Assembly (NCBI GenBank): GCA_025354165.1
Contig: JANXNI010000058.1
Coordinates: forward strand, 1 to 64,000
Source: Burkholderiales bacterium
GTDB lineage: Bacteria; Pseudomonadota; Gammaproteobacteria; Burkholderiales; Casimicrobiaceae
DNA: 64,000 bases
Direction of reading: 5' to 3'
The notes beneath the pieces are model-generated. The model was not told the DNA's origin. It worked only from the letters and a program-made list of their open reading frames with translations, and ran no database searches. The translations under genes and the position numbers were made by a program. Shown here one piece after another: positions 18,413 through 23,503 of the stretch (the stretch's first letter is position 1; each line of letters opens with the position of its first letter).

Positions 18413-20104
18413 CTACGGCAAGCAGGCCACACCGTGCGTCGATTCAATCCAGGTCAGGATTTGTTGCGCGTTGCGAGCGGTTGGAGACGACGTATTCACA
18501 GCACCCACGGTCAGAGCATCACCCGAGAGTCCAAGCAGCGCACGAAGGATTAAGAGGCCGTCGGTCAATGCGTTGACTTGACCATCGCCGTCGGCGTCGA
18601 GATTCAACGATGCGAGGTAGGTTTCAAGCACGTGACCAGTGCGGGTCGCGTTTTGACCGAATGCGCCCGCGCTTAGTGCGTCCCCTCGGTAGCCGAGGAG
18701 GTAGCGGATGATTATGACGACATCCGAATATGCACGTGTGGCAAGGTTGCCATCAACGTTCAACGCGCAGGCAGCGGACGGATAAGCCCCTCCTTCAAGT
18801 CTTGCCACGCAAAGATAAGTCATACCGCCCGTCGTACACGACCCAGCGATGACGATTTTCCCGCCTGCATCGACGATTACGCGTGTGCCGTATGAATCAC
18901 CCGATGCAGCAGGGAAAAGTGCTTTTCCACCCACACCAAACGTGGCGTCCAAAACGCCGTTAGCGTTATAGCGCGCAGCACAGAAGTACGACCGCGAGCC
19001 GGAGTAACAGGCGCCCGCCAGCACAATTTTTCCATCCGCCTGCAACGCCAAATCTCTCGCATTCGCAGAACCTGAGTTAAAGGACGTAAACACGTGACCA
19101 GCGTCGCCGAACGATACGTCGAGCGAACCGTTTGGAGCCAAGCGCACCAAGCAAAATGACTGGAGTTCACCGGTTACTTGGCAGCCTCCGGCTACGAGGA
19201 TTTGGCTGTCGTCTTGAAGCGCGATGCCGGCTGCCGACTGAACCGTACCAGGCAGCGCTGCAACAACCTTCCCCGAAGTTCCAAAACTCAAATCCAACAA
19301 GCCGTTTGCGTGATAACGGGCAATGCAGAAGTCAAAACCCACCCCGTTAAAGCAATGTCCGCTCACTAGCAATTTTCCATCAGCCTGAATTACCAAGTCA
19401 AAGGCGCTATCGTTATTTCCGGTCAGATCGGTCGTAACCATTCCATTGCCGTTAAAACTTGCGTCGAGCGACCCGTCCTCGTTATACCTCGCCATGCAGA
19501 AGTCAATCGCCTGCTGCGCATCGCACTCCCCAACAAGCACTATTCTGTTTTGGGAATCGACTGCAACCGCGTGGCCATTCGCGTCACTCGTTCCTATCGT
19601 GGTCACAACGCTGCCTGATCCATCACCGAACGATGAATCCAGAATGCCTTCGCTGCTGAACCGCGCGACGCAAAGGCCAGTTGGCCCAAACGCATACGGC
19701 CCGTTTGCTGCTACACAAGTACCCGCAAGTATGATGTGGCGGTCACGAGTGACAGCAACTGCTTCGGCAAACTTGAGTGGCCCCGGCGGTTGCCCCGCAC
19801 TCGAGAAAGTTAAATCTACATTCCCGTTACCAAGTACGCGGGCCTTTGAAAAACGGGGAAACGACCCAACTGTGCCGCCGACAATATAGGCATCGTCGCC
19901 ATGTGCGGCGATCGAAGCGCTGTAGCCATTGTCTCCGGCGGCGGTGAGGATCACAATGCCTCCACCGCCGAACGACGTGTCCAATTGACCGGGAGTAGCG
20001 GCCGAACTACCGCACAGCGCACATCCAAACGTGGTGCCTATCAAAGCAAACAGCCACTTGCGGCAAAACGTGGGCAGGTGTGAGCAGAGAAATGCAGCAA
20101 TCAT
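18413..20104 (-). CDS. Secreted delta-60 repeat protein with dockerin-like C-terminus
   Basis: From ATG 20104 the protein has a signal peptide (hydrophobic, ending near SSAAT). Seven repeats of about 57-60 residues follow, each opening with L/V-D-x-(S/T)-F-G-x-x-G (LDTSFGGGG, LDSSFGDG, LDASFNGNG, LDLSFGTSG, LDVSFGDAG, LDATFGVGG and one degenerate). Each contains a DGK-I/L-V-x-A/G-G strand. This is the delta-60/beta-propeller pattern. The last ~115 residues form a two-loop calcium-binding-like module (LDADGDGQVNALTDGLLIL) that also ends the protease at 29814-32021. An upstream extension to 20248 is open but adds nothing like a signal, and no good Shine-Dalgarno decides the start. Role unknown, probably a cell-surface or extracellular protein. 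Confidence 0.75.
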   Translation of the reverse strand: MIAAFLCSHLPTFCRKWLFALIGTTFGCALCGSSAATPGQLDTSFGGGGIVILTAAGDNGYSASIAAHGDDAYIVGGTVGSFPRFSKARVLGNGNVDLTFSSAGQPPGPLKFAEAVAVTRDRHIILAGTCVAANGPYAFGPTGLCVARFSSEGILDSSFGDGSGSVVTTIGTSDANGHAVAVDSQNRIVLVGECDAQQAIDFCMARYNEDGSLDASFNGNGMVTTDLTGNNDSAFDLVIQADGKLLVSGHCFNGVGFDFCIARYHANGLLDLSFGTSGKVVAALPGTVQSAAGIALQDDSQILVAGGCQVTGELQSFCLVRLAPNGSLDVSFGDAGHVFTSFNSGSANARDLALQADGKIVLAGACYSGSRSYFCAARYNANGVLDATFGVGGKALFPAASGDSYGTRVIVDAGGKIVIAGSCTTGGMTYLCVARLEGGAYPSAACALNVDGNLATRAYSDVVIIIRYLLGYRGDALSAGAFGQNATRTGHVLETYLASLNLDADGDGQVNALTDGLLILRALLGLSGDALTVGAVNTSSPTARNAQQILTWIESTHGVACLP

Positions 20105-20365
20105 GGCGATGCTCGGCGCTGTGAACACCAGTGAAAGTCTAGCGGCTCCTGCCGACAAGACCCCAGCTCCTGTTTGGAATACCCACGTATATGGGCTAGG
20201 TGCATGAAAAAACTTCCGGTCGACTTTTGTGCAGGTTGGGTTCAACACACGCTAAATGACATGTTTTTGAGAAATGCTGAATGTCCCATAGTCGCTTCCG
20301 TGCGGGCAGGAGCAACGTGGTTTTTCTTGCGCAAGAGTAAAGGCTAGGTCGAACAGAAGTCGCTT

Positions 20366-20417: not shown

Positions 20418-21296
20418 CTACTTCAGCAAACTCTTCAAAAGCTTGCCCATCTCAGCCGGATTGCGCGTGATGTGAAAGCCGCACTCTTCCATGATGGCGA
20501 GTTTGGCGTCCGCTGTGTCCGCGCCGCCGCTGATCAGCGCGCCGGCGTGGCCCATACGTTTGCCTGGTGGTGCCGTGACACCAGCAATGAAGCCGACGAC
20601 CGGTTTCTTCATATTGGCTTTGACCCACATTGCGGCCTCCGCCTCATCCGGGCCGCCGATTTCGCCGATCATGATGACAGCGTCGGTCTCGGGATCTTCA
20701 TTGAACAGACGCATGATGTCGATGTGCTTTAACCCGTTGATCGGGTCGCCGCCGATGCCGACGGCGGTGGATTGGCCGAGGCCGAGTTCGGTGAGTTGAC
20801 CGACCGCTTCATAGGTCAGCGTGCCCGAGCGCGACACAACGCCGATGCGGCCCTTCTTGTGAATGTGGCCGGGCATGATGCCGATCTTGATTTCTTCCGG
20901 CGTGATGAGGCCGGGGCAGTTGGGCCCGAGCAACAACGTCTTTTTGCCGAGCATTTTGTAGCGTGTTCTCAGCATGTCGAGCACCGGAATGCCCTCGGTG
21001 ATGCACACGACCAGATCGAGTTCGGCATCAACCGCCTCGTCAATCGCCGCAGCCGCGCCCGAAGGCGGCACGTAGATCACGCTGACCGTTGCGCCAGTTT
21101 GCGCTTTGGCTTCCTTGACGCTGGCGTAAATCGGAATGCCTTCGAAATTCTCGCCCGCTTTTTTAGGGTTCACACCAGCCACGAATGCCGCTTTGCCATT
21201 GGCGTAGGCCGCGCAGCCGTGGGTGTGGAACTGGCCGGTTTTGCCGGTGATGCCCTGGGTAATAACTTTGGTGTCTTTGTTGATCAGGATCGACAT
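20418..21296 (-). CDS. sucD: Succinyl-CoA synthetase alpha subunit
   Basis: SucD forms succinyl-CoA from succinate, CoA and a nucleoside triphosphate together with SucC. Motifs are the CoA-binding N-terminal Rossmann domain ([13 protein letters not shown]), [16 protein letters not shown], the conserved LLGPNCPG, and the phospho-histidine site [10 protein letters not shown] (His near residue 247). Length 292 matches the family. GAAGGA lies upstream of the ATG. It follows the extended sucC gene by 23 bp in the usual sucC-sucD order. Confidence 0.97.
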
Positions 21297-21319: not shown

Positions 21320-23503
21320 TTATTGCGCTACGAATTCGACGCGGCGATTTTTCTGCTTGTTTTCAGGCGTGTCGTTGGCAGCGACTGGCTTGGTGTCGCC
21401 GTAGCCTTTGCCGGTGAGCGCTTCTTTCGGCACACCTTTGGCGACCAGATAGGCCACAACGCTGTCGGCGCGGCGCTGTGAAAGCGCCAGATTGCTTTCG
21501 GGCAGACCCACGTTGTCGGTGTGGCCACCGATTTCGCCTTTGGTTTTGCCGTCTTTAATCAGCTCCGCCAGATCGTTCAATTCCTTGGCTTCGCCGCCAC
21601 CAATCTTGGCGCTGCCGGTATCGAATTCGACCTCCAGCTTGAACGTTTTGGCACCCGCTTTGAACGCATCGGCGGCAGCCATTGCCACGCCTTTGAGCTC
21701 GCTTGACCAAGTCACGCCATCCCCCAGCATCGCCTTGATTTCGGCTTCGGCGTCTTTCATGACCGCGTCACCCATTTCGCCCGTAGCTTTGACGCCAGCG
21801 CCGTCGAATGCGAGGCCCGTTGTCTTGCCGCCAAACGATTTGAGCCAGCCGAAAATGTCAGCCCATTTGCCAGCGAACGAGAACGCGGGAAGCGCTGCGT
21901 CGAGCGTCAATTTGTCAACGACGTTAGCGTCGCCGTAAGCCGCTTTGGCAGCCGCCAGAATCGCGTCTTTCGCGGCCTGATCTTTCACGGCACCTTCGAG
22001 CGTGACTTTGCCGTCGGCAACGTTCGCCGTCCACTTGCCGAATGACGGCAACGCGGGCTTCGCCGCTTCAACTACTTTCGGCGCAACAGGAGGCGTTGGC
22101 GGCGCAGGCGGCGCCTCTTTCGTTTGCGTGCATTGCTTCAACAACAGCGCAGCCAGAATCGCACAAACGATGACGGCCAGCCACTTCATCCAGCCCGATG
22201 CGGGCGCGGACGGCGTTAATGGCTTTGATGCGGTAGCGGCAGTTGCAACCGTCGCAGCAGCCGGTTTCGCAGTGGCTGCAATTGCGGCAGTACCGAGAGC
22301 CGCCGCACCAACCTTAGCCGCAACGGCTGCACCCGGCTTGAAACCTTTAGCCGCAGCCACGACTTTCTCAGCCGCTTCACCCATGTTGTTGGCGACGATG
22401 ATCGGCAAGCCCGATTTGGCCAAAATTTCTTTGCCCAAGTCTTCGTTGGTGCCCTTCATGCGCACTACGAGCGGCACTTTCAGACCGACTGCTTTCGACG
22501 CCGCGACCACGCCTTCAGCAATGGTGTCGCACTTCATGATGCCGCCGAAAATGTTGACCAGAATCGCTTTCAGATTCGGGTTTTTCAGCATGATCTTGAA
22601 CGCTTCGGTCACCTTCTCGGTCGTGGCACCGCCGCCGACGTCGAGGAAGTTCGCGGGCTCGCCGCCGTACAGCTTGATGGTGTCCATCGTCGCCATCGCG
22701 AGGCCTGCGCCGTTGACCAGACAGCCGATATCGCCGTCGAGCGAGATGTACGCCAGATCAAACTTGCTGGCTTCGATTTCAGCAGGATCTTCTTCGTCGA
22801 GATCGCGCATCGCGACGATGTCGGGATGGCGATACAGCGCGTTGCTGTCAAAATTGAATTTCGCGTCAAGCGCGACGACGCTGCCGTTGCCGGTAACGAC
22901 GAGCGGGTTGATCTCGGCGAGTGATGCGTCCTTGTCGATGAACGCGTGATAGAGACCTTGCAGGCACTTGCGCGCTTCGACAAACGATTCCGACGGAATG
23001 CCAATCGCGCCGGAGATTTCGTCGCACTGCGCATTGGTCAGACCGAGGCCCGGATCAATGAACACTTTCTTGATCGCGTCAGGATTTTTGTGCGCGACTT
23101 CCTCGATATCCATGCCGCCTTCGGATGACGCCAGGAGCGCTACGCGCTGCGTACCACGGTCGAGCACCATCGAAACGTAGAGCTCCTTTTTGATGTCGGC
23201 GCCGTCTTCGATGAAGAGGCGACGCACCTTCTGGCCCGCCGGGCTGGTTTGATGCGTGATGAGCTGCATGCCGAGAATCGCGGTGGCGTATTCGCGCACC
23301 TGCTCCAGCGACTTCGCCACTTTGACGCCGCCGCCCTTGCCGCGACCGCCCGCATGAATCTGCGCCTTGACCACCCACACCGGGCCGCCGAGTTCCTGCG
23401 CGGCTTTGACCGCCTCTTCCACCGAAAAAGCCGGGATGCCGCGTGGCACCGGAACGCCGAATTCGCGAAGAATCTGTTTGCCTTGGTACTCGTGAATTTT
23501 CAC
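21320..23503 (-). CDS. sucC: Succinyl-CoA synthetase beta subunit fused to a membrane-anchored OmpA domain
   Basis: The GTG start at 23503 follows AGAAGGGG. Residues 1-387 are a complete SucC: N-terminal [23 protein letters not shown]-grasp region, LAEINPLVV (Glu197, Asn199), [11 protein letters not shown] and [16 protein letters not shown] normal SucC would stop near residue 388. Here the frame continues for 340 residues: an Ala/Thr linker (388-437), a transmembrane segment (about 440-456), a Pro-rich stretch (464-475), two BON-like segments (about 488-600) and an OmpA-type domain (about 622-727). The OmpA domain keeps [19 protein letters not shown] and the C-terminal NRRVEF, the peptidoglycan-binding pattern. 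I see no stop or frameshift at the junction. The topology would put SucC in the cytoplasm and OmpA in the periplasm. An internal ATG at 22189 (MKWLAV) could give a separate OmpA product, but its ribosome-binding site is weak. Confidence 0.9.

Follow-up and report, generated by a model that had tools for sequence, protein, structure and literature searches.

Introduction

Succinyl-CoA synthetase beta subunits (SucC) of known structure (1jkj, 2nu6 and others; NCBIfam NF001913) are chains of 385-437 residues without a tail of the kind described below. The OmpA-type domain is best known from other settings. TssL and MotB are inner-membrane proteins in which it serves as the wall anchor, and Rv0899 (OmpATb) of Mycobacterium tuberculosis (2l26) carries a BON domain followed by an OmpA domain and, we assume, a membrane helix as well. 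The photosystem I apoprotein A2, PsaB (7f4v_aB, 872 aa; presumably from Gloeobacter), is an energy-converting membrane protein with a C-terminal OmpA-like domain. It has long been asked whether bacterial TCA enzymes are spatially organised beside the respiratory chain, with mostly weak interactions considered as the basis.

Here we describe a SucC that continues into a membrane helix and an OmpA domain, encoded in a 64,000-nucleotide stretch of DNA ("the window") from a Burkholderiales bacterium of the family Casimicrobiaceae. Like the solved SucC proteins, it has the full catalytic part and an adjoining sucD; by contrast, the forms found in its genus are 500-734 aa long and carry a helix, with OmpA in 7 of 13. 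The extension has the BON-OmpA order of Rv0899, which is its best PDB match in both sequence and fold, but Rv0899 has no N-terminal enzyme domain. A DUF937-TM-OmpA protein (L071, in genome G296) shares the plan of an N-terminal domain, one hydrophobic stretch and OmpA; unlike the fused SucC, it starts with DUF937, gives no BON match and lacks the PSAPxAGW motif. The TssL and MotB families appear among the profile and PDB matches, but these are secretion and motility components, whereas the fused SucC is a metabolic enzyme. PsaB, in turn, is an integral photosystem subunit, whereas here a soluble enzyme has been given a new anchor.

Each of the domains is well known. The first-pass annotation knew of no described protein with this combination, and we found none among the matches listed in a SucC-aimed search of open-licence full text; neither was a membrane- or wall-anchored SucC described among those matches. 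Neither this set of domains nor the anchoring of a succinyl-CoA synthetase through its own chain appears to have been described in the literature covered.

A single reading frame joins SucC to a membrane helix and an OmpA domain

The fused gene occupies a single uninterrupted frame of 727 codons at window positions 21320-23503 on the minus strand, with a GTG start at 23503 and a TAA stop at 21320-21322. The GAAGGGG immediately 5' of the GTG is its likely ribosome-binding site. The layout of the frame and of the following gene is:

22343-23503, minus strand: catalytic portion of SucC with ATP-grasp_2 and Ligase_CoA, residues 1-387
22214-22342, minus strand: Ala-rich linker, residues 388-430, fast-evolving
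22130-22213, minus strand: membrane helix (436-458 in the model) with the PSAPASGW juxtamembrane motif before it, together residues 431-458
22037-22129, minus strand: Pro/Ala/Lys linker C-terminal to the membrane helix, residues 459-489
21902-22036, minus strand: first BON domain, approximately residues 490-534 (marginal Pfam match at 494-534)
21701-21865, minus strand: second BON-like fold, residues about 547-601 (model only, below every Pfam cut-off)
21323-21640, minus strand: OmpA-type peptidoglycan-binding domain, residues 622-727 (Pfam, fold match, motif residues)
20418-21296, minus strand: sucD, normal alpha subunit, 292 aa, ATG start (named by eye)

The catalytic part matches Pfam ATP-grasp_2 (residues 2-203, 253 bits) and Ligase_CoA (262-382, 111 bits), and scores 584.1 bits against a cut-off of 370 with the NCBIfam equivalog for the succinate--CoA ligase beta subunit, covering model positions 1-386 of 388. 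Against solved bacterial SucC, the E-value is about 1e-125. Asn199, Asp213 and Asn264, which we take to be the metal- and substrate-binding residues of the active site in E. coli numbering, are present at the same numbers, their equivalence being based on near-gapless alignments to two solved SucC proteins. The start of sucD lies 23 bp beyond the stop of the fused sucC, which bears out the first-pass annotation and is the usual operon arrangement of SucC. The product differs from a soluble SucC of about 388 aa in its length of 727 aa and its predicted membrane helix, and is therefore classed as a SucC variant.

The OmpA domain (PF00691) is matched at residues 627-720 with 73.8 bits (cut-off 27.2). 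Asp663 and Arg678 of its GHTD...LSxxRA motif are intact; after A. baumannii OmpA, we presume that these residues hold peptidoglycan. The open frame and the Pfam and NCBIfam matches thus confirm what had been proposed on first reading, i.e., a complete SucC that runs without a stop through a linker and a membrane segment into an OmpA domain with its key motif residues in place. The BON-like segments named in the same proposal held up in part: the first passes the Pfam cut-off marginally (PF04972, residues 494-534, 27.7 bits versus 27), and the second is seen only in a structural model of low to medium confidence. In relatives, the BON match ranges from 34.4 bits in G001 to BON_like only (E 0.085) in G013 and no match at E 0.1 in G011. 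In the model of the extension, built with 7 sequences (mean pLDDT 57, pTM 0.38), residues 436-458 form the helix, and a pair of BON-like units and an OmpA fold follow. A full-length AlphaFold model (mean pLDDT 53) was too poor for use. Foldseek with the extension model returned Rv0899 at the top (E 2.1e-12), then mostly OmpA-type domains, including 3td5 (E 8.5e-8), an OmpA-like domain solved together with a peptidoglycan peptide.

The window genome, a 97-contig draft (95% complete), has one match to PF08442 over the cut-off; a second match, in a 910-aa frame, falls below it at 21.8 bits. Since the genome is a draft, an ordinary second sucC could have escaped detection. No such tail is present on the products of mdh, sdhA, sdhB, gltA, sucA, sucB and lpd in the cluster of the window genome, of which sdhA was identified by TIGR01816 and the others were named by eye. 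Among the TCA proteins examined, SucC is the only one predicted to be anchored by fusion.

The membrane anchor is conserved throughout the genus

A search of 17 genomes of the genus gave matches in 15 at the limit used, 13 of them with a complete sucC. In G006 and G014 the gene is cut by contig ends, and G003 (85% complete) and G008 (79%) are unmatched. All 13 complete proteins have a C-terminal extension with the linker, the common juxtamembrane motif and the helix. Five have both BON and OmpA regions (G000, the window genome, and G001, G011, G013 and G015; 727-734 aa), two have OmpA without BON (G002, 638 aa; G007, 648 aa) and six have neither, ending in a Pro/Ala-rich tail at 500-551 aa (G004, G005, G009, G010, G012 and G016). 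The first-pass annotation had asked whether full-length fusions occur in related genomes: the extension and helix do so in 13 of 13, and OmpA in 7 of the 13. What these members all share is the membrane anchor, whereas OmpA is an optional addition; given its absence from 6 of 13 members, wall binding is not required throughout the genus.

Scanning the genome contig collection with a degenerate motif pattern gave 9 loci, all apparently from genus members, in metagenome-assembled genomes of six naming series; this pattern, stricter than the one used within the genus, does not capture the G009 and G016 sequences. Within the genus, the juxtamembrane motif scan gave 13 matches, 12 of them in SucC, with a pattern that misses G016. 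The sole match outside SucC lies at G015:C479:10408-10434. G015 also has the contig-cut start of a second sucC, 62 residues long, beside its complete fused copy.

Outside the genus, 40 SucC proteins (32 from the same family, 8 from other families of the order) are 382-400 aa long and have no C-terminal extension. The count includes L159, which was missed by the motif and read by eye (388 aa). Its 32 same-family members come from 47 genomes, the 15 uncounted ones comprising 8 unmatched, 3 with partial matches and 4 others. Four same-family genomes outside the count, G021, G027, G031 and G035, have open frames of 392-422. The 8 from other families come from 24 genomes. For the first-pass annotation, close relatives with a normal sucC stop and a distinct ompA-like gene directly behind it would have spoken against a fusion. 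No such arrangement was seen: all 13 genus members read through, and the 40 SucC frames of other genera stop. The fusion is real and genus-wide, and an ompA gene apart from sucC is rejected for the 13 complete members.

Predicted anchoring, topology and function

In each of the 13 fused proteins, 19-residue hydropathy peaks at the proposed helix (1.85-2.68), compared to a maximum of 1.25-1.67 anywhere in unfused SucC (n = 14). With good support, we infer that succinyl-CoA synthetase is anchored to the membrane in these bacteria; support is moderate for a periplasmic OmpA domain bound to the wall, which is plausible. We consider it likely that the locus encodes a working succinyl-CoA synthetase, with beta subunit and envelope anchor on one chain, kept on the cytoplasmic side of the inner membrane. 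SucC would fold in the cytoplasm and pair with the normal SucD, and the single helix after it would cross the inner membrane. Because pairing with SucD is expected in the cytoplasm, the helix should run N-in, C-out, which would place the BON and OmpA parts in the periplasm, where OmpA could grip peptidoglycan via Asp663 and Arg678.

The charge distribution leans slightly against this orientation under the positive-inside rule, with 0-2 Lys/Arg in the 15 residues before the helix window and 2-3 in the 15 after it. Moreover, in forms that carry OmpA the Ala-rich linker is itself weakly hydrophobic, with next-best windows reaching 1.70, so that a hairpin with a cytoplasmic OmpA domain is conceivable.

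An enzyme tethered in this position may hand succinate to the membrane-bound succinate dehydrogenase and keep ATP formation near the membrane. As succinate is the substrate of that dehydrogenase, proximity is the most natural purpose, and substrate proximity as the benefit of anchoring is a conjecture. With one SucC in the draft, all succinyl-CoA synthetase of the window organism should be anchored, unless it is cleaved or a copy was missed; proteolysis within the fast-evolving linker could release soluble SucC.

Selection and origin of the extension

For ten chosen pairs, dN/dS is 0.03-0.09 in SucC, 0.04-0.19 in the membrane segment, 0.05-0.15 in BON and 0.04-0.20 in OmpA, with looser linkers (0.03-1.0); the domain ranges cover pairs in which neither sequence lacks the domain and dS is computable, and several dS values are near saturation. 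Ratios well below 1 in every domain indicate that the whole polypeptide is selected as protein.

A tree built from the SucC part recovers the genus as one clade (100/99). The pairs G009/G016 and G005/G012, which have the helix only, branch earliest, followed by G013 with the full form, and G004 and G010 sit among OmpA-bearing relatives. The simplest reading of this order is that the anchor came first and BON-OmpA was probably added later, with subsequent loss of BON in the G002/G007/G010 group and of OmpA in G004 and G010. A full-form ancestor, which would require more losses, is not preferred; some forks of the SucC tree are weak, and for this reason such an ancestor stays in play.

There are candidate donors. 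Of 300 genomes surveyed in the order, 14 that lie outside the genus have a match spanning BON and OmpA (four were read), and a sister genus has one such protein (L224). The OmpA domain of the DUF937-TM-OmpA protein is 48% identical to that of the fused SucC over 107 residues and is its nearest row in the OmpA tree (fork 91/82, on a long branch). Branches of this tree are long and its forks weak, and its "energy" group was disregarded because the PufC row of L206 was wrongly cut; it does not contain the CoxB and PufC of the window genome itself, L144, the CoxB rows, three HppA, two PufC and five stand-alone rows. A search of a plasmid collection gave 8 records with OmpA-only matches.

Alternative explanations

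A misassembly, missed stop or frameshift that joins sucC to an ompA-like gene could be imagined in a draft of 97 contigs, but the same fusion is found in 13 genomes, including the single-contig G005 (in its helix-only form), and the motif lies on 9 contigs of six naming series. With the extension conserved across the genus, an artefact of assembly, frameshift or stop codon is refuted, and we give it practically no weight. An explanation that keeps the frame intact is that it yields two products, through an internal start at the Met of GWMKWL or cleavage in the linker, and that the fusion serves co-expression only. The 17-residue stretch at the proposed start does resemble the beginning of a signal anchor, the linker between SucC and the helix evolves fast, and stand-alone BON-OmpA proteins are known in the order and in one sister genus. 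However, G016 has Leu (CTC) in place of this Met, and inspection by eye showed no clear ribosome-binding site ahead of it in the 13 members; on these two grounds the internal start is rejected; it would in any case still leave a full-length product. Retention of motif and helix in the six members without OmpA is also unexplained by a separate OmpA product. Overall, a two-product gene seems unlikely to us.

We are similarly doubtful that the envelope module is the selected function, with SucC as passive cargo, a cytoplasmic domain with good expression that has replaced DUF937 in a protein of the DUF937-TM-OmpA type. The closeness of that protein in the OmpA tree and its identity level speak for such an origin. 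On the other hand, the helix is never lost among the 13 proteins, whereas OmpA or BON is lost in some; the earliest branches of the SucC tree carry the helix only; and the fused SucC, the sole one found in the window genome, shows the lowest dN/dS of the chain. We therefore prefer the reading of a working, membrane-held succinyl-CoA synthetase: an ordinary enzyme with a new, conserved cellular address. Such a protein suggests that a TCA step is physically tied to the cell envelope in a betaproteobacterial genus known from metagenomes, where evolution appears to have organised one TCA enzyme covalently across a whole genus. The natural variants (anchor; anchor and OmpA; anchor, BON and OmpA; and the sister genera without any of these) form a test set for SucC tethering.

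Other energy-converting proteins with OmpA ends

The window genome has 16 OmpA matches, 15 of them over the cut-off. Three further OmpA ends sit on energy-converting proteins:

G000:C12:13058-15619, minus strand: HppA membrane pyrophosphatase with OmpA, 854 aa (L138; H_PPase 885 bits, OmpA 38 bits)
G000:C72:138327-139898, minus strand: cytochrome c oxidase subunit II (CoxB) with a cytochrome c domain and OmpA, 524 aa (L140; OmpA 53 bits)
G000:C17:90715-92106, plus strand: reaction-centre cytochrome PufC with OmpA, 464 aa (L141; CytoC_RC 453 bits, OmpA 51 bits)

We surveyed these ends in 90 relatives, the window genome included. For HppA, the match extends to the OmpA end without stops in 14 of the 17 genus members and in 5 of the 57 other genomes with a match; in the remaining members, G016 reaches the end with two internal stops, and G006 and G014 fall short. 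For CoxB, it extends to the OmpA end in 14 of 17 members (all except G005, G009 and G016) and in none of 49 other genomes with a match. PufC has matches in 7 of the 90 genomes, four of which extend to the OmpA end: those of G000, G001, G006 and, from outside the family, G047. OmpA-ended HppA and PufC thus occur outside the genus and are not confined to it; the CoxB-OmpA and SucC extensions were found only in the genus among the relatives examined. The window organism is probably phototrophic, and likewise G001 and G006.

As a tentative and rather speculative extension of these observations, SucC, CoxB, HppA and, in some members, PufC might be pinned by OmpA side by side to the same peptidoglycan, forming an energy zone in register with the wall. 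If the three other OmpA fusions share the purpose of the SucC fusion, energy metabolism would be scaffolded by the cell wall.

DNA next to sucC

Short palindromic repeat-like DNA of the CCCGCGCAGGCGGGAATCC type lies 3' of the sucC stop in G015, G011 and G007 (L011, L012 and L020), and not in G000. The gap between sucC and sucD, determined by script, is 397 bases in G011 and 383 bases in G007. In the window itself, a large frame next to sucD (18413-20248, minus strand) appears by eye to contain SFG-type repeat units and, at its C-terminus, a dockerin-like stretch.
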